From a virus: DNA of 20,498 nucleotides. The DNA is taken from positions 1-20,498 of IMG/VR virus record IMGVR_UViG_3300007276_000404. The stretch is one strand, 5' to 3'. Position numbers and translations under genes: made by a program. The notes under the pieces are model-generated. The model was not told the DNA's origin. It worked only from the letters and a program-made list of their open reading frames with translations, and did not search any database. Shown here piece by piece: positions 1,611 through 20,498 of the stretch (position 1 is the stretch's first letter; each line of letters opens with the position of its first letter).

Positions 1611-1618
<8 letters not shown>
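1262..1618 (+). CDS. Small beta-rich phage structural protein
   Basis: A 118-aa protein with alternating short beta strands and no TM segment or signal peptide. The pattern 'F.[35 protein letters not shown]..ts..[11 protein letters not shown].l.daaGtI...[11 protein letters not shown]..[12 protein letters not shown].[18 protein letters not shown]' is one I associate with a widespread small beta-sandwich protein encoded beside fibre genes in tailed phages. Its exact role, such as an adaptor, neck or fibre-attachment protein, is not established from this sequence. A strong Shine-Dalgarno cassette precedes the ATG. The gene overlaps the collagen-like gene by 8 nt, so the two are probably co-translated and may act together on the particle surface. 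Confidence 0.65.
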
Positions 1619-3017
<1,399 letters not shown>

Positions 3018-11074: not shown

Positions 11075-11500
11075 ATGGGAACTAATGTGAGACGTAAAAG
11101 AGCGGTAGCTAAGCAGGTTGCGGAGATTTTTGTTCGAGAAGGTAAGATTTTAGACCCTCTGGAATGGACGGCTCTTAAAGACAAACCTTTGAATGTAGCG
11201 GCAATTCGTATGCACCTAGGCAGCTGGAATAGAATGCTAGCCCGAGTTAGAACTGCAGAGCCCGAGCTATGGGCACTCATTGGAACAGACGAAGGAAAAA
11301 AGCATACTCCCGTAGTAAAAGCGAACTCAGTTAATGCCAAAAAAGAAGAGCCCAGTTTAATTGATAAGATTAAAGACAAGGTATCTTCCGACCCTAAAGA
11401 TGACCCTAAAGCAGCCCTAACTGCTGCTATGAAGGCGGCTAAAAAAGCCAAAGACTCTGAAGAAGCAGAGAAGAAGGCAGCAGCAGATGAAAATAACTAA
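11075..11500 (+). CDS. Small Lys/Ala-rich head-module protein, function unknown
   Basis: A 141-aa protein. The N-terminal half is a basic, mostly helical domain ('NVRRKRAVAKQVAEIFVREGKILDPLEWTALKDKPLNVAAIRMHLGSWNRML') that resembles a DNA-binding or helical bundle fold. The C-terminal half is a low-complexity tail of Lys, Ala, Glu and Asp ('AAMKAAKKAKDSEEAEKKAA'), probably a charged single helix. The start is put at 11075, 2 nt after the portal stop and behind an AAGGA-type site. The frame stays open upstream to an ATG at 11024 inside the portal gene, but that stretch has no convincing ribosome site. The position between portal and protease suggests a head assembly factor; a scaffold-like or DNA-binding role is speculative. 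It overlaps the next gene by 14 nt. Confidence 0.6.
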   Translation: MGTNVRRKRAVAKQVAEIFVREGKILDPLEWTALKDKPLNVAAIRMHLGSWNRMLARVRTAEPELWALIGTDEGKKHTPVVKANSVNAKKEEPSLIDKIKDKVSSDPKDDPKAALTAAMKAAKKAKDSEEAEKKAAADENN

Positions 11501-13463
11501 TAAAGTTTTTAATCTAACATCGTCCTTCGAGAAAGTAAAATCTCAAGATGATGGAAGCGTAGTAATTAGAGGCATGGCGTCTACTCCAGACATAGATAGA
11601 TCTGGAGATATTATTGACCCCAATGCTTGGAATAAAGGCGGGTTAATTGATTTTAAAGCTAACCCTGTAATTTTATTCAATCACAATTACGATCGTCCAA
11701 TAGGAAAGGCCACGGGTGTAACCGTGTCTGATAATGGACTAGAGATCGAAGTAAAAATTAGTAAGGCCGCAGGCGATGTTTGCGACCTAATTAAGGACGG
11801 TATCCTTGGAGCATTTTCTGTTGGTTTCAGAGTTAAGGATGCAGATTATATAGAAGAAACCAACGGCCTGTTAATTAAAGACGCGGAATTATTCGAAGTA
11901 TCAGTAGTATCGGTACCTTGTAATCAAGCTGCTACCTTTTCATTAGCGAAGTCTTTTAGTTCTGAAAAAGAATATGAAGACTATAAAAAAACTTTCACAC
12001 ATAGTGTAGACCTAGCCGGTCAGTCTCTGGCTAAGGAAGAAGCAATAGCTTCTAGCATAGCTAGCGACGCACCGGACGGAGAAGCACAAGCTTCTCATCA
12101 GGAGAAAACAATGGATCCTAAAGACCTAGAAGCTTTGATGAAGAAAGTAGCGGATGAAACTGCTACTAAAATCGCATTACAAGCTGCTGAAAAGAAAGCT
12201 GCAGACGAAGCACAAGCGAAAGCTACTGCTGATGCTGAAGCTGCAAAACAAGCTCAAGACGAAGAAACTCGCAAAGCTGTAGAAGTATCAGTAATTACTG
12301 GCACTGAGCAACTAGCCAAAGATTTCGAACAAAAGCTTTCCGCAAAAGACGCCGACATGGCTGCAACTATTGAGTCTTTCCGCAAGGAACTAGACGAAAA
12401 AGCTGCAGAATTGGCTTCTATTCAAGAGTCAAAAATGCGCTTTAATGATCGTGGCAACAATGGTGAGGGAATTGTAAAATTCGCTGACGAATTTGTACAG
12501 GCACATATTTTGGGTATTATCACTGATAAAGGCTTTGAAACTGATTTCGCAAAGTCCCTAATGGAAAAAGCTGGTGTTGATTATACTACATCTGCTGCTG
12601 ACATTGATCAAACCGTTGCTAACCGCATCGAAAAAGAAATTATGCAAGAGCTACGCGTAGCAGGACTATTCCGTGAAATCCCAGTGATTGCCGGCGCTAC
12701 AGTTCTACCTATGCAGCCTGATTCAAACCCTGCTACATTCCAGACTACCGGCGATACTTCTGGTAACTTGGAAGAGTACGGTGCAGTAGATGCAGCCTTC
12801 GACGTGCAGCAAGTAATCCTTAATGCATATCGTCTAATCTCAAGCACATATATCGACAACGATACTGATGAGCAAATTCTTATTGCTCTATTGCCTATGC
12901 TTGTAGATGCAGTTGCACGTGCACATGCACGAGCAGTTGATAGCATGATTATCAACGGAGCTGGCTCAATTGATGGCCTAGATACTTATGCTTCTGTCAC
13001 TGATAGTACTCTAAGTATTGGAGGTGGTGCACTTCTAACAGCTGCAGGCCTACTTAACGCTCGTCAGGTAATGGGTAAGTACGGTATGAATCCTCGTGAT
13101 ATCGCCTACGTAGTTAGCCAGAACGGTTATTACGATCTACTAGATGACGCGGGATTCCAAGACATCAATGAAGTTGGTAGTGATATCGCTATGAAGGTTA
13201 ATGGTACTGTTGGAGCTGTTTACGGTTCTCAAGTAGTTGTATCAGACAGCTTCCCAGCTGAAGCAGCGGGTACTCCTGCAGGCTTTGCTGTTAATATCCG
13301 TAACTACGTGATACCTCGTCTACGCGGTATCAAGCTAGAGACTGATTACGAAGTAATGGCGCAGCGTTCTGTGATCGTTGGTAGCCAAGCACTAGGTTTT
13401 GAAGAGCTTACTGCGGGTGTTGCCGGCCATGATGGTTGCATCAAGATCGACTTTGCAGCATAA
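11487..13463 (+). CDS. Prohead protease fused to major capsid protein
   Basis: A 658-aa polyprotein. Residues about 1-155 are an HK97-type prohead protease (U35/S78 group), with likely catalytic H66 in 'NHNYDRPIGK', S111 in 'GAFSVGF' and an acidic partner near E137 in 'ELFEVSVVSVPCNQAA'. Residues about 156-310 form a linker and a coiled-coil, Ala/Lys/Glu-rich delta or scaffold domain. Residues about 315-658 are an HK97-fold capsid protein ('IMQELRVAGLFREIPVIAGATVLPM', 'DAVARAHARAVDSMIINGAG', 'LRGIKLETDYEVMAQRSVIVGSQALGFEEL'). The protease probably cuts between scaffold and shell during maturation, plausibly near 315-325. Most HK97-like phages encode protease and capsid separately. An internal ribosome site with M209 probably allows the shell part to be made alone. 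A terminator follows. Confidence 0.92.
   Translation: MKITNKVFNLTSSFEKVKSQDDGSVVIRGMASTPDIDRSGDIIDPNAWNKGGLIDFKANPVILFNHNYDRPIGKATGVTVSDNGLEIEVKISKAAGDVCDLIKDGILGAFSVGFRVKDADYIEETNGLLIKDAELFEVSVVSVPCNQAATFSLAKSFSSEKEYEDYKKTFTHSVDLAGQSLAKEEAIASSIASDAPDGEAQASHQEKTMDPKDLEALMKKVADETATKIALQAAEKKAADEAQAKATADAEAAKQAQDEETRKAVEVSVITGTEQLAKDFEQKLSAKDADMAATIESFRKELDEKAAELASIQESKMRFNDRGNNGEGIVKFADEFVQAHILGIITDKGFETDFAKSLMEKAGVDYTTSAADIDQTVANRIEKEIMQELRVAGLFREIPVIAGATVLPMQPDSNPATFQTTGDTSGNLEEYGAVDAAFDVQQVILNAYRLISSTYIDNDTDEQILIALLPMLVDAVARAHARAVDSMIINGAGSIDGLDTYASVTDSTLSIGGGALLTAAGLLNARQVMGKYGMNPRDIAYVVSQNGYYDLLDDAGFQDINEVGSDIAMKVNGTVGAVYGSQVVVSDSFPAEAAGTPAGFAVNIRNYVIPRLRGIKLETDYEVMAQRSVIVGSQALGFEELTAGVAGHDGCIKIDFAA
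12111..13463 (+). CDS. Separate major capsid precursor from internal start
   Basis: Inside the protease-capsid gene an ATG at 12111, in frame and equal to M209 of the fusion, is preceded by AGGAG at 12100-12104 with a 6-nt spacer. This is a stronger ribosome site than the one for the full-length gene. The product would be 450 aa: about 100 residues of coiled-coil scaffold (delta domain) plus the HK97-fold shell, exactly the architecture of a normal stand-alone HK97 capsid precursor. Codon choice also changes near this point: arginine codons before it are mostly AGA, after it almost all CGN, as in highly expressed genes. Together these imply that hundreds of capsid subunits are made from this start and fewer protease fusions from the upstream one. 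This is inferred, not shown. Confidence 0.75.
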   Translation: MDPKDLEALMKKVADETATKIALQAAEKKAADEAQAKATADAEAAKQAQDEETRKAVEVSVITGTEQLAKDFEQKLSAKDADMAATIESFRKELDEKAAELASIQESKMRFNDRGNNGEGIVKFADEFVQAHILGIITDKGFETDFAKSLMEKAGVDYTTSAADIDQTVANRIEKEIMQELRVAGLFREIPVIAGATVLPMQPDSNPATFQTTGDTSGNLEEYGAVDAAFDVQQVILNAYRLISSTYIDNDTDEQILIALLPMLVDAVARAHARAVDSMIINGAGSIDGLDTYASVTDSTLSIGGGALLTAAGLLNARQVMGKYGMNPRDIAYVVSQNGYYDLLDDAGFQDINEVGSDIAMKVNGTVGAVYGSQVVVSDSFPAEAAGTPAGFAVNIRNYVIPRLRGIKLETDYEVMAQRSVIVGSQALGFEELTAGVAGHDGCIKIDFAA

Positions 13464-16000: not shown

Positions 16001-17122
16001 ATGACAGATATTTTATATTTTAGTAGAGATACTAAAGTCTACATTGAAATTGGTGCTAACATTTGGGAAATACCAGTTCTTGACGGCTTTAGCTTCTCTC
16101 AATCAACAAACGCTACAGAGATTTCAATTAATGAAATGGAAAACGCTACAGGTGTTAGCCGTAGAGGCAAGCAAATGTTTAATGACTCTTATGCTCCCGC
16201 AGAATGGTCTTTTAGCACGTATGCTCGTCCTTTTGTTTCGACAGGCACAGGCGCGGGGGCTGCAGACGATGTTCTAGCTCACCACGCAGTCGAAGAAGTA
16301 CTATGGGCTCTTATGGTCGGTGATGCCGCTTACACAGAAAATGTAGCCGCCCCCAATGTATTTACTGGAGTAGTTCCAACCTTGGCAGACTCCGACATTG
16401 ACTTTTCCGGCTCAAATAAAAGCTCTTTGGGTACGTGTACTCTTCATTTTGTACTAGGTGCATGTAATGGGGCTAATGAGGCCTTCTATTCAATTTCGGG
16501 GGCTGTAGTAGATACAGCAACTATTGACTTTGATATTGATGGTATTGCTACTATTAATTGGTCTGGTTTCGGCTCTATTATATCAGAGGAAGCTACCGGA
16601 CCTACCGCAACTATTTATGAAGGTATCCCAGCAACTAATAACTATATTAGGAATCGTCTTACCTCGCTAGCAATTACAGGTTCTGGTACTGGAAATTTCG
16701 AGGCTACTTACGATATTACTCTAACCGGAGGAAGTATTGAAGTTAGTAATAACTTATCCTTTCTAACTCCTGAGACTCTTTGTGCTGTTAATCAGCCTAT
16801 AGGGCATGTTACAGGCACTAGGTCAATAAGCGGTAATTTTACTTGTTACCTAAATGCGGATACTGTTACATCAGACCATAGTGCAGACTTGTGGGAAGAT
16901 CTAATTGAGAGTACAACTATAGTAACTAACTCTTTTGGTCTTAACTTTAAGATTGGCGGAGCCTCGGCAGCCCCTCGTGTAGAAATGAACATGGCACAAT
17001 GTCACCTAGAAATTCCAACTCATTCTTTAGATGATGTGGTGTCTCTTGATGTCACCTTCAGTGCTTTAGGGTCTACTATAGATGCAACTGACGAACTAGT
17101 TGTTACCTACGTAGGTGTATAA
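16001..17122 (+). CDS. Major tail tube protein
   Basis: A 373-aa protein that stacks in rings to form the tail tube. The N-terminal 'FSRDTKVYIEIGANIWEIPVLDGFSFSQSTNATEISINEMENATGVSRRGKQMFNDSYAPAEWSFSTYARPF' is typical of tail tube proteins, including large T5 pb6-type forms: beta strands, then a loop rich in Arg/Lys, then 'AEWSFSTY'. The central part (about 80-200) is variable and Gly/Thr/Asn-rich. The C-terminal half ('RNRLTSLAITGSGTGNFEATYDITLTGGSIEVSNNLSFLTPETL' to 'VEMNMAQCHLEIPTHSLDDVVSLDVTFSALGS') completes a second tube-like beta domain. At 373 aa it is longer than lambda-type tube proteins. It has a perfect ribosome site and is followed by a promoter and terminator hairpin, fitting a very abundant product. 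Confidence 0.88.
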   Translation: MTDILYFSRDTKVYIEIGANIWEIPVLDGFSFSQSTNATEISINEMENATGVSRRGKQMFNDSYAPAEWSFSTYARPFVSTGTGAGAADDVLAHHAVEEVLWALMVGDAAYTENVAAPNVFTGVVPTLADSDIDFSGSNKSSLGTCTLHFVLGACNGANEAFYSISGAVVDTATIDFDIDGIATINWSGFGSIISEEATGPTATIYEGIPATNNYIRNRLTSLAITGSGTGNFEATYDITLTGGSIEVSNNLSFLTPETLCAVNQPIGHVTGTRSISGNFTCYLNADTVTSDHSADLWEDLIESTTIVTNSFGLNFKIGGASAAPRVEMNMAQCHLEIPTHSLDDVVSLDVTFSALGSTIDATDELVVTYVGV

Positions 17123-17130
17123 AAAAGTTC

Positions 17131-17159
17131 TTGACATTTAAGGTCTTTTCAAATATACT
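17131..17159 (+). promoter_or_regulatory. Sigma70-type promoter P3
   Basis: TTGACA (17131-17136) and TATACT (17154-17159) are separated by exactly 17 bp, in the 112-nt gap after the tail tube gene. The expected start is near 17166, only about 8 nt before a terminator-like hairpin. It would serve the tail chaperone and tape measure genes. Confidence 0.8.
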
Positions 17160-17173
17160 ATATGTACAAAATA

Positions 17174-17206
17174 AAAACAAGGAGTAGAAATGCTCCTTTG
17201 TTTTAT
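17174..17206 (+). terminator. Terminator or attenuator hairpin T3 in the P3 leader
   Basis: AAAACAAGGAGTA (17174-17186) pairs with TGCTCC plus TTTGTTTT (17191-17204) around a GAAA tetraloop (17187-17190). One T (about 17199) is bulged, and there is one wobble pair next to the loop. The T-rich 3' arm is terminator-like, although it is not a pure T run. It would end transcripts from the tail tube gene, and it also lies inside the leader of P3 transcripts, so it may act as an attenuator. The stem contains the AAGGAG of the possible leader peptide. Confidence 0.7.
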
Positions 17207-17225
17207 CACTTTATATAATAAATAG
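17190..17225 (+). CDS. Possible 11-aa leader peptide
   Basis: ATG at 17190 opens an 11-codon frame (MLLCFITLYNK) ending in TAG at 17223-17225, 9 nt before the tail chaperone ATG. AAGGAG at 17179-17184 lies 5 nt upstream, a near-ideal ribosome site, but it is buried in the T3 hairpin and the ATG sits at its loop. Translation could therefore open or be blocked by the hairpin. It may equally be a chance result of a GGAG/CTCC terminator stem. There is no independent support that it is made. Confidence 0.3.
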   Translation: MLLCFITLYNK

Positions 17226-17234
17226 GATTAGAAC

Positions 17235-17660
17235 ATGACAGACACGCCAGTTGTATCACTAGAATCTTTAATGATACCAAGTAGAGCAGTAAATATCCCT
17301 TTCGAGGGCTTCGACGGGTTAGAAGTAGAGCTCGTTTATTTATCAAGAAACGAATTAGTTAAACTTCGTAAAAAGTGTGTGACTTCCAAATTCAGTAGAA
17401 GTACTCGTCAGCCCGAAGAAACGCTAGATGAGGAGAAGTTTTTACAAGAATATTGTGCGGCCGTGATTCAAGGATGGAAAGGCTTTAAATATCGTTACCT
17501 AGAAGAGCTTCTTTTGGTAGATATATCAGCTTTTGAACCTGACGATGATATGCCTTTTACAGTACATAATGCTGTAACTTTAATGAAAAACTCAAGTGAT
17601 TTTGACTCGTGGGTTACCGAGACAGTAGGTGATCTCGAAAATTTTACAGCGAACAAATAA
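17235..17660 (+). CDS. Tail assembly chaperone, short form (G-like)
   Basis: A 141-aa protein, the unshifted product. Tail assembly chaperones bind the tape measure protein and recruit tail tube subunits during assembly; they are not in the finished virion. The sequence is a compact, largely helical, charged protein ('VNIPFEGFDGLEVELVYLSRNELVKLRKKC', 'EEKFLQEYCAAVIQGWKGFKYRYLEELL') ending soon after 'DSWVTETVGDLENFTANK'. It is recognised by its position between tail tube and tape measure and by the frameshift signal at its 3' end, both conserved hallmarks in siphophages. AGGA at 17224-17227 gives a good ribosome site. The short form is expected to exceed the fusion form greatly. Confidence 0.85.
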   Translation: MTDTPVVSLESLMIPSRAVNIPFEGFDGLEVELVYLSRNELVKLRKKCVTSKFSRSTRQPEETLDEEKFLQEYCAAVIQGWKGFKYRYLEELLLVDISAFEPDDDMPFTVHNAVTLMKNSSDFDSWVTETVGDLENFTANK

Positions 17661-18079
17661 TAGAGCTAGATAAGTTATTTGTTCGATATGTAAAAGAAGC
17701 GGAGCAAAATTTCGATGTAGATCGTTACTTAAATCTATGTGAACAGCTTGGGAATGAGCCAGATCTACAAAAGATGCCACTAACTACCGCAGATTTTCCT
17801 GCAGAAGTTCAAGTGGCTTTTTTTATGTACAGCCTTTTATCTGACAACTGGGAAGGTATGTCGGGTACCTACATGGGTAAAGACTGGAGTATAATAGAAA
17901 CCTTATTTAATATACACGATGTGCAGAATAGAGAACAAGTTCTGTTATTTATGAAAATGTATGAAAGCAAAATTGTCTCTTATAGGCATAAAGTAGCTGC
18001 TGATAAACAAAAACGAGAAAGCAAGAAAGCAAGCAGCTCAGGCGGTGGTAAAGAATTCACCCATAATGTACAAGGCTAA
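17235..18079 (+). CDS. Tail assembly chaperone, -1 frameshift fusion (GT-like)
   Basis: Slipping back one base on A AAT TTT (17639-17645) joins the first 137 codons of the short form to a second frame, open from 17633 to the TAA at 18077-18079. The fusion is about 281 aa. The added part begins 'YSEQIIELDKLFVRYVKEAEQNFDVDRYLNLCEQLGN', continues with a helical domain ('VQVAFFMYSLLSDNWEGMSGTYMGKDWSIIETLFNI') and ends in a Lys/Ser/Gly-rich tail. In lambda the G and GT proteins perform this chaperone function; the T part usually contacts the tail tube protein. The ATG at 17774 inside the second frame is not needed as a start. The stop overlaps the tape measure start (TAATG). Confidence 0.85.
17639..17685 (+). 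promoter_or_regulatory. Programmed -1 frameshift signal
   Basis: The slippery heptamer A AAT TTT at 17639-17645 is in the correct phase (X XXY YYZ, zero frame GAA AAT TTT). After a 4-nt spacer, CGAACAAATAA (17650-17660) pairs perfectly with TTATTTGTTCG (17675-17685), an 11-bp stem with a 14-nt loop. The zero-frame stop TAA (17658-17660) lies inside the stem. The -1 frame is blocked upstream by TGA at 17630-17632, so a slip must occur between 17633 and 17657, exactly where the heptamer lies. Sequence, phase, spacing and the open -1 frame all agree. Confidence 0.88.
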
Positions 18080-20498
18080 TGGCTAGTAAAGTAACAATAG
18101 ATGCAACTGTAGACGATAAGGGGACAATGAAGAAGACTGATCTTCAAGCTAAAAAGCTTGGTAACAGTCTGAATAATGTCGCCAAAAACAGTCACACAGC
18201 TGATAGAGGCCTAAAAGGCGCTAGCAAGCAATCCTCTAATAGTACTAAAAACTTCTCAAAAATGGCCCAAGGTATCAACGGAGGGCTTATACCTGCCTAT
18301 GCAGTTCTAGCAGCTAACGTCTTCGCGGTATCTGCAGCCTTCGAATTTTTAAAGAGTGCGGGAACCCTGAAAACCCTACAAGAGGGGCAAACTGCATATG
18401 CAGCTGCAACAGGTACTGCACTTAGATCCTTAACTAACGATATCATAGACGCTACAGATGCTCAGATTAACTTTCAAGACGCCTCTCAAGCTGCTGCTAT
18501 TGGAATATCTGCAGGACTTAACGCCGACCAACTAGTACGTTTGGGTAAAGCTGCTAAAGACGCCTCCCTTATTCTAGGTAGAGACGTCCCAGACTCCTTT
18601 AATCGCCTAGTTCGAGGTGTAACAAAAGCTGAGCCTGAACTATTAGACGAACTTGGTATCATTTTACGACTTGAGGATGCTAAGAAAGCCTATGGTCTTA
18701 TGATTAATAAGAACGCAGAAGATCTAACAGCCTTCGAAAGATCTCAAGCAGTAGCTAATGATGTTCTAACCCAGTCCGAAGAAAAATATAGTCGTATTCT
18801 AGCGATCACTTCTCCTACTACTAACTCTTTCATAAAGATGGGTAAAGCCATGAATGATGTAGTTAACCAGATAAAAATGGTATCCGCAAGTGTAATCGGC
18901 CCTCTAGCAGATGCTATTACAAATACTCCTGCATTAGGTATCGCAGTAATGGGTTTATTTGCTAAAAGTATTTTAAGCACTATACTTAACACAGAGGCCT
19001 GGGGCCAGTCAAGTGAAGAAGCTGCTGCACATGCAGAAAATGGGTACAGAAACGCAAATGCCGCTTTAGAAAAACTAAATCAAGGACAATCAAGAGCTGC
19101 AGCCTCCGCAGCGACTCTACGGAAAACTGGGGGCTTACCAGCTACTTTTAAAGGCAAAGGATTTGCACAGGTAGCTGCAGGAAACGGAGCCTCTCTATCT
19201 TCTCAACAAATTGTAGGCATGAGAAGTGCTGTAACCGCTTCCAAAGTTATGGTTCCTGAGATAAAAGCAGTCTGGGTAAGAGAGCTAAATATCATGCTTG
19301 CTGAGAGTAAAAGGACTACCTTAGGTATGTCAGCTAATTTTGAGTCTGTAGCTACTAGGTGGCAGTTAACAATGGCTAGAATGAAAGTAATTACTACTGC
19401 TGGCTTTGCAGCAATGAAAACAGCGGCAGCAGCTTTTGCAAGATTCGCTACTACGGCACTAAGTGTAGCTGGCTGGATAGCTATAGCCGCCTTAGTAGCT
19501 GGATATATACATTCTTTCTTTAAAGCAGAGAAAGTAATAACTTCCTTTGGAGAGAAAATAGAGCACACTACCACCAAGATGGGTAGTCTTACGGAAGAAT
19601 TTAAAGACTTTCATGAAGTTCAAAAGGTACTAATTGAAGACGGAGGTGGATTACTCCAGTACTACACAGCTCTAGGTAGCCGTATAGATTCCGTAGGCCT
19701 GTCTGCAAGTAGGACTGCTCTATCTTTTGCAGGGGCTGAATTTAATGCTGGGGGAGGTAAGGAAGGGCTCTGGAACAAGACTAAGCGTGTGGCAAGTAAT
19801 TTATTTGAGGGTGCTACTGACTTCAGCGGCATTGGCCTAACCGATAAAGCAGAAATAAAAGATTTCGATGGTACTTTTGGAGGATTCTTAGCCACTTCTA
19901 ATGATTCTAGGCTGCAGGACATGAGCGGGTATTACCGGGACTTAGCTAAAGAAATAGAGAACGCTAATAGATTTGGGGACGAGGGCAGCGTTACGATGAA
20001 TAAGTACTTAGAGACTATATTAGCTCTTCTAGAGTCTGAGAGCCCTGAAAAGGTTCGAGAACTTTCTCAGTCTTTAGGAGCACAACAATCAAAAGTGGCT
20101 GAACTAACTCTAACAATGAAAGAGTTAGTGCGCGTACGTGCAGATAATAAAATAGCCGCACAGGGTATGTTACAATCCTTTATTGCAGAAAGTAAAGAGA
20201 TCAGACTAGTTAATACCTTGGAGGAAGAAAGAACAAAAATGCAGATTATTGCTGCAGACGCTACTAAATTCTTAACTAAAGAGGAACTAGAAAGGTTAGA
20301 TGTAGTAAATAAGCAAATAAGTTTATTTAAGAAAATGGACAGACTAGAGAAGGATAAAGCCTTGCGTGCCAGCAGCCTAAAAATTGCAGGAGTTGTGGGG
20401 GGTATTGGCACAACTTCAGGACAGTCAGCTCTGCTCGCGTTTGAGCTACAAAGAGTCGAACTCACTAACAGAAGACTGTACGCAGAAGAAAAAATTAA
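18079..20498 (+). CDS. Tape measure protein (3' end outside window)
   Basis: The frame is open from ATG 18079 to the window edge: at least 806 codons with no stop. It sets tail length and is threaded through the tail tube with help from the chaperones just upstream. The N terminus ('MASKVTIDATVDDKGTMKKTDLQAKKLGNSLNNVA') is followed by a hydrophobic segment at about 70-90 ('LIPAYAVLAANVFAVSAAF') and the 'FKSAG/QEGQTAYAAATGTALRSL' helical region. Another hydrophobic stretch lies near 459-478 ('SVAGWIAIAALVAGYI'), surrounded by Ala-rich helices, and later parts are long charged coiled-coil segments. Such hydrophobic segments are typical of tape measure proteins, which help DNA cross the host membrane. 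The total length is unknown here. The ATG overlaps the upstream stop. Confidence 0.92.
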   Translation, partial: MASKVTIDATVDDKGTMKKTDLQAKKLGNSLNNVAKNSHTADRGLKGASKQSSNSTKNFSKMAQGINGGLIPAYAVLAANVFAVSAAFEFLKSAGTLKTLQEGQTAYAAATGTALRSLTNDIIDATDAQINFQDASQAAAIGISAGLNADQLVRLGKAAKDASLILGRDVPDSFNRLVRGVTKAEPELLDELGIILRLEDAKKAYGLMINKNAEDLTAFERSQAVANDVLTQSEEKYSRILAITSPTTNSFIKMGKAMNDVVNQIKMVSASVIGPLADAITNTPALGIAVMGLFAKSILSTILNTEAWGQSSEEAAAHAENGYRNANAALEKLNQGQSRAAASAATLRKTGGLPATFKGKGFAQVAAGNGASLSSQQIVGMRSAVTASKVMVPEIKAVWVRELNIMLAESKRTTLGMSANFESVATRWQLTMARMKVITTAGFAAMKTAAAAFARFATTALSVAGWIAIAALVAGYIHSFFKAEKVITSFGEKIEHTTTKMGSLTEEFKDFHEVQKVLIEDGGGLLQYYTALGSRIDSVGLSASRTALSFAGAEFNAGGGKEGLWNKTKRVASNLFEGATDFSGIGLTDKAEIKDFDGTFGGFLATSNDSRLQDMSGYYRDLAKEIENANRFGDEGSVTMNKYLETILALLESESPEKVRELSQSLGAQQSKVAELTLTMKELVRVRADNKIAAQGMLQSFIAESKEIRLVNTLEEERTKMQIIAADATKFLTKEELERLDVVNKQISLFKKMDRLEKDKALRASSLKIAGVVGGIGTTSGQSALLAFELQRVELTNRRLYAEEKI

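Follow-up and report, generated by a model that had tools for sequence, protein, structure and literature searches.

Probable Frameshifting in Phage Tail Assembly Chaperones

In phage lambda, the tail assembly chaperones G and G-T are obtained by a ribosomal frameshift (Levin 1993 and Xu 2004, as cited in PMC5009743), and the slip is a low-level one (PMC5009743). Shifts of -1, -2 or +1 are all in use among tailed phages (PMC5009743), and a switch of direction therefore has a precedent between distant phages. Among T5-like phages, the announcement of Sugarland describes this phage, like T5, as being without a predicted frameshift signal (PMC6256483). The GenBank record of phage Shivani annotates a joined two-piece chaperone, on which the Shivani announcement is silent; recoding in T5-like phages had therefore already been annotated before. 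As to +1 sites, influenza PA-X uses UCC_UUU_CGU, and a tendency of UUU_Ynn to slip to +1 in bacteria has been noted (PMC5009743). The locus analyzed below carries a cassette from which two tail assembly chaperones are very probably produced at a constant ratio, through programmed -1 ribosomal frameshifting. Judged from its sequence, the cassette is one of lambda G/GT-type -1 frameshifting, a kind already known.

Genomic Context of the Chaperone Genes

The window, i.e., the whole stretch of 20,498 nucleotides that was analyzed, is a 20.5-kb virus record and belongs to a marine tailed virus. The blastn search of positions 16900-18500 against phage records gave no match, and a protein search was therefore needed. 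The zero-frame ORF (17235-17660, 141 aa) was assigned as the N-domain of a tail assembly chaperone ("G") by its match to PHROG_313 (E 5e-12), while its Pfam match to Phage_TAC_5 lies below the family cut-off. The product of the overlapping -1 frame ORF (17633-18079, the "T" domain) matches the tail assembly chaperone family PHROG_3914 (E 4.7e-18), and its predicted fold resembles those of T5-like "tape measure chaperone" models. The nearest annotated chaperone relatives belong to T5-family (Demerecviridae) phages, with at most 39% identity. The fold search of the N-domain against the PDB returned a weak best match, 3klu (YqbN; Z 5.6, rmsd 7.0 over 101 aligned), which was not taken as proof of identity.

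The chaperone pair is positioned between the major tail protein gene (16001-17122), upstream, and the tail length tape measure gene (18079-20498; PHROG_3779, E 3.8e-48), which runs off the window and whose start overlaps the T stop as TAATG. Both chaperone frames, the elements of the recoding site and the tape measure gene lie on the + strand. Nearby genes match the Phage_tail_terminator_7 and T5 p143-like families. The interval that separates the chaperone gene from the major tail gene contains a promoter close to the consensus (TTGACA, 17 nt, TATACT) and, ~20 nt further, a hairpin resembling a terminator (17131-17198). A promoter-like site with two mismatches at most occurs upstream of the chaperone gene in 25 of 41 relatives, some of them ordered terminator then promoter. 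Elsewhere in the window, the prohead protease and the major capsid protein are apparently fused in a single 658-aa ORF (11487-13463), and positions 1611-3017 encode a long collagen-like protein of 468 aa with Gly-X-Y repeats.

Anatomy of the Predicted Recoding Site

Read directly from the sequence, the 3' codons of ORF 17235-17660 are GAA AAT TTT ACA GCG AAC AAA TAA, which places the slippery heptamer A AAT TTT (17639-17645) in phase with this ORF. A 4-nt spacer, ACAG (17646-17649), separates it from a hairpin whose 5' and 3' arms, delineated by folding and by the covariation described below, cover positions 17650-17661 and 17674-17685; in relatives, the gapless stem starts mostly at +4 to +8. 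The segments CGAACAAATAA (17650-17660) and TTATTTGTTCG (17675-17685) form 11 perfect base pairs, extended by a 12th, the wobble pair U17661-G17674. The zero-frame stop codon TAA (17658-17660) constitutes the 3' end of the 5' arm. After the slip, the -1 frame would be read from 17645 to its stop codon at 18077-18079, and the predicted G-T fusion amounts to 137 + 144 = 281 aa. These features had been proposed in a preliminary description of the locus. The heptamer and its phase proved exact to the base, and the letters and coordinates of the 11-bp inverted repeat, 4 nt past the heptamer, are correct; the stop codon does lie in the 5' arm, and the -1 frame is open over the claimed interval, the predicted fusion having the stated length of about 281 aa.

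Upstream of the heptamer, the segment AGGTGATC (17627-17634, + strand) matches the complement of the anti-SD over 8 nt and might act as a stimulator. Its counterparts are AGGTGA- or GGAG-like in many relatives and absent in several, and it overlaps conserved Val-Gly-Asp codons, which constrain it. A search of Rfam over the frameshift site returned no credible family.

Conservation of the Heptamer

Scans of IMG/VR yielded 145 loci, some contigs being counted twice, in which the frame of the T domain was assigned by profiles for both domains. In 132 of them, the window's own included, the T domain uses the -1 frame. At the junction, all 132 possess an in-phase A AAT TTY (TTT in 129 cases, TTC in three), only Y being seen at the last position. 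Elsewhere in the same genes, Asn is encoded by AAT at 59%, Phe by TTT at 73% and Glu by GAA at 69%, and the heptamer is therefore kept well beyond what codon usage would provide. When the 132 loci are grouped at 85% identity into 46 representatives, the chance that all groups use AAT has a log10 P of -10.6 for the Asn codon alone, a value that is overstated since independence is assumed. To note, a survey of all 64 heptamers in E. coli placed H_HH.U_UU.Y among the most efficient classes (PMC4066793).

The alignment of relatives suggested in the preliminary description thus documents a conserved heptamer. The contrary case, relatives in which the heptamer is lost while the second frame stays open with its own start, does not occur within the -1 clade, as all 132 loci keep it. 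In the neighboring T5-like clade, the heptamer is lost and the T domain is found in the +1 frame beside a conserved UUU_CGN; since the loss is accompanied by this shift and this motif, recoding has apparently been kept and its direction alone changed.

The Downstream Hairpin

The 62 nt starting at the heptamer fold with -16.4 kcal/mol, as compared to -5.75 (sd 2.13) for dinucleotide shuffles (z -5.0; 0 of 200 as good). With shuffling of synonymous -1 frame codons, the 45-nt segment of the window alone gives z -2.46 (p 0.03). A fold including the heptamer produced an outer 7-bp pairing, UUUUACA/UGUAAAA, which was not retained, since it would be melted by a ribosome positioned on the heptamer.

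The decisive support for the hairpin is comparative and goes beyond the sequence of the window alone. Synonymous -1 frame codons were shuffled within each of the 46 representatives. The 45-nt segment directly past the heptamer then exhibits a mean z of -2.75 (median -2.49), while the next lowest value among other T-frame segments is -1.61 and most are near 0. This same procedure gave no significant excess for the first segment in L013, L021, L098 and L150. The stems of the relatives form a family of roughly 6-12 bp. The long perfect stem, which had been thought worth comparing, is indeed at the long end of this family, although it is not unique there.

Two main pairing registers, defined by their best column sum, were distinguished: 57 in 23 of the 46 representatives, including the window, and 48 in seven; smaller groups pair with column sums of 60, 79, 53, 54 or 63. 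For register 57, 26 sequences were selected by their common stop position after removal of the register-48 rows; eight pairs are changed on both sides, and the covariation score of 0.146, as compared to 0.084 in shuffles (0 of 500 reaching it), is well above every slid control. In the window, the core of the stem harbors two compensated pairs, A-U at columns 19 and 22, that are G-C in most relatives. The nine register-48 sequences score 0.245, as compared to 0.077 in shuffles (0 of 500), in a test biased by the choice of members having at least six pairs. Cross-tests of each set with the other register gave no covariation excess; the shuffle controls leave the relatedness among sequences in place. 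The compensatory changes that an alignment of relatives was expected to reveal are therefore present in two registers. Between the two subfamilies, the 3' pairing partner is shifted by 9 nt. Locus L067 (3408-3461) displays a single 5' arm that can pair with either of two complete 3' arms spaced by 9 nt, and looks like an intermediate between the two hairpin registers.

A competing explanation accepts the frameshift and takes the hairpin as a by-product of protein constraint, the heptamer working alone. Both arms do cover well-conserved residues (in the -1 frame, Gln-Val for CAAGTAG and Leu-Leu for CTACTTG), and some sites of tailed phages have been described as functioning without stimulators (PMC5009743). 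However, the excess of folding survives shuffles that preserve the protein, the stem pairs change on both sides, and the 3' partner moves between subfamilies, with L067 carrying both positions; a by-product is therefore unlikely. The comparative data argue instead that the downstream structure is under selection, and the hairpin may stimulate the slip.

In 43 of the 46 representatives, the predicted fold has the stop codon within its 5' arm, the exceptions being L008, L022 and L026. This position is probably in part geometric, because the stem starts 4-8 nt and the stop 12 nt past the heptamer; the stop codon might nonetheless have a role within the stem.

The -1 Frame as Coding Sequence

From +24 to +120 relative to the heptamer, substitutions at the three -1 codon positions occur at 0.19, 0.096 and 0.419, which is a coding pattern. 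The first ATG, GTG or TTG of the -1 frame is located at a median of +129 across groups and at +135 in the window. No SD-like sequence precedes this first start in any of the 46 groups, nor does one precede the +135 start of the window. AlphaFold2 predicts a confident structure for the T frame, the first helix of which (residues 4-22) is encoded ahead of any start. The coding pattern and the predicted helix before any start argue against a free-standing second gene, and the -1 frame, to judge from its substitutions, evolves under coding constraint ahead of any start that could be used.

These observations bear on the explanation by which the T frame would be a gene in its own right, its translation depending on re-initiation or on a start codon of its own and not on frameshifting. 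Overlapping phage genes are often translationally coupled, and in many T5-like records the second ORF is annotated as its own gene from an ATG. It is nevertheless very improbable that such a gene exists here, as the first start would come after ~40 codons with a coding pattern and a confidently predicted helix, without an SD-like sequence in all 46 groups, and as re-initiation leaves both the heptamer and the hairpin unexplained. A change of frame by slippage of the RNA polymerase and not of the ribosome, for which the short A/T-rich run A4T4 might be invoked, can be dismissed almost entirely: the runs are of four bases only, those of usual polymerase slippage are much longer, and the codon phase and downstream hairpin, which it does not require, are both conserved.

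Proposed Mechanism

Programmed -1 ribosomal frameshifting is supported because the heptamer, the startless open -1 frame and the stem pass comparative tests, and because both parts belong to chaperone families and are located by the tape measure gene. Most ribosomes would read ORF 17235-17660 and stop at the TAA, yielding the 141-aa G-type protein. A minority would be slowed by the hairpin with AAT in the P site and TTT in the A site, and would slip back by one base: tRNA-Phe could then re-pair perfectly with UUU, and tRNA-Asn with AAA, the wobble base excepted. The slipped ribosomes would pass the melted stem in the -1 frame and produce the 281-aa G-T fusion. By analogy with lambda, G may coat the tape measure protein and the T part may recruit the tail tube protein. 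That slippage occurs, how often it does and what the two products do are inferred from the sequences.

A Likely Change of Direction at One Codon

The T domain is found in the +1 frame in phages T5, PG07, Spivey, AG74, OSYSP, smaug and D415, as well as in ten uncultured loci (L122-L131). The genes involved in T5 are T5.143/T5.142 (L154, 8625-9459, - strand). In cultured T5-like phages (L082-L086 and L088), an invariant UUU CGN occupies the junction. An automated scan identified UUU CGN at the junction Phe codon of 18 out of 18 +1-class loci, which include two IMG/VR copies of cultured phages, and T5 separately displays it. This Phe aligns with that of the -1 heptamer, and the +1-class loci do not possess A AAT TTY at the junction. 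The window, with its T domain in the -1 frame and TTT ACA, is not of the UUU_CGN +1 type. Upstream of the TTC, the +1 frame of T5 stays open for only 6 nt, and the second gene, as annotated, begins 61 nt past the first stop, with no obvious SD; the motif suggests that T5 may shift to +1 at UUU_CGN. In the Aeromonas phage vB_AdhS_TS3 (L087, 2471-3240), the chaperone genes contain several in-frame TAG codons, as though TAG encoded an amino acid, and the annotation is fragmented; the junction still has CAG TTT CGA.

In a tree of 58 fusions, a single change of direction suffices, the dividing branch having a support of 100/98, and some +1 branches are long. It is likely that, within the wider T5 family, the chaperone frameshift has switched direction once at the same Phe codon: a large uncultured clade would shift to -1 on A AAU UUY, with a hairpin whose pairing partner has repeatedly arisen anew at other positions, while T5 and the cultured phages related to it would shift to +1 on UUU_CGN. 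A literature search, with most subscription journals outside its scope, found no description of the conserved UUU_CGN or of the -1/+1 split. The new part would be the switch of direction inside one family and at one codon. A homologous junction that apparently uses -1 in one of the clades and +1 in its neighbor could reveal how a frameshift site reverses direction with its fusion protein kept. UUU_CGU also becomes a concrete candidate signal for T5, a model phage said to be without one.

Comparison with Known Systems

The cassette brings a large clade of uncultured phages into a known theme, on comparative evidence that is unusually clean. As in lambda, two chaperones would be made from frames that overlap immediately ahead of the tape measure gene; a -1 slip close to the 3' end of the first ORF would give the long product its C-terminal extension. 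The lambda heptamer, GGGAAAG, differs from the A AAT TTT of the window, and the clade of the window, unlike lambda, possesses a conserved, covarying hairpin. T5.143/T5.142 and their homologues have N and T domains homologous to those of the window, encoded at the corresponding position of the tail operon and with the same Phe codon at the junction. Their T domain, in contrast, uses the +1 frame, and their junction has UUU_CGN in place of A AAT TTY. The -1 signals of dnaX and of the IS3 family (X XXZ ZZN followed by a stem) resemble that of the window by their efficient E. coli heptamer class and a stem a few nt downstream; the SD-like match upstream, a possible stimulator in the window, would be a further parallel. 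Compared to these, the clade of the window is distinguished by a zero-frame stop codon lying within the stem in most members and by the predicted use of the signal for tail chaperones.
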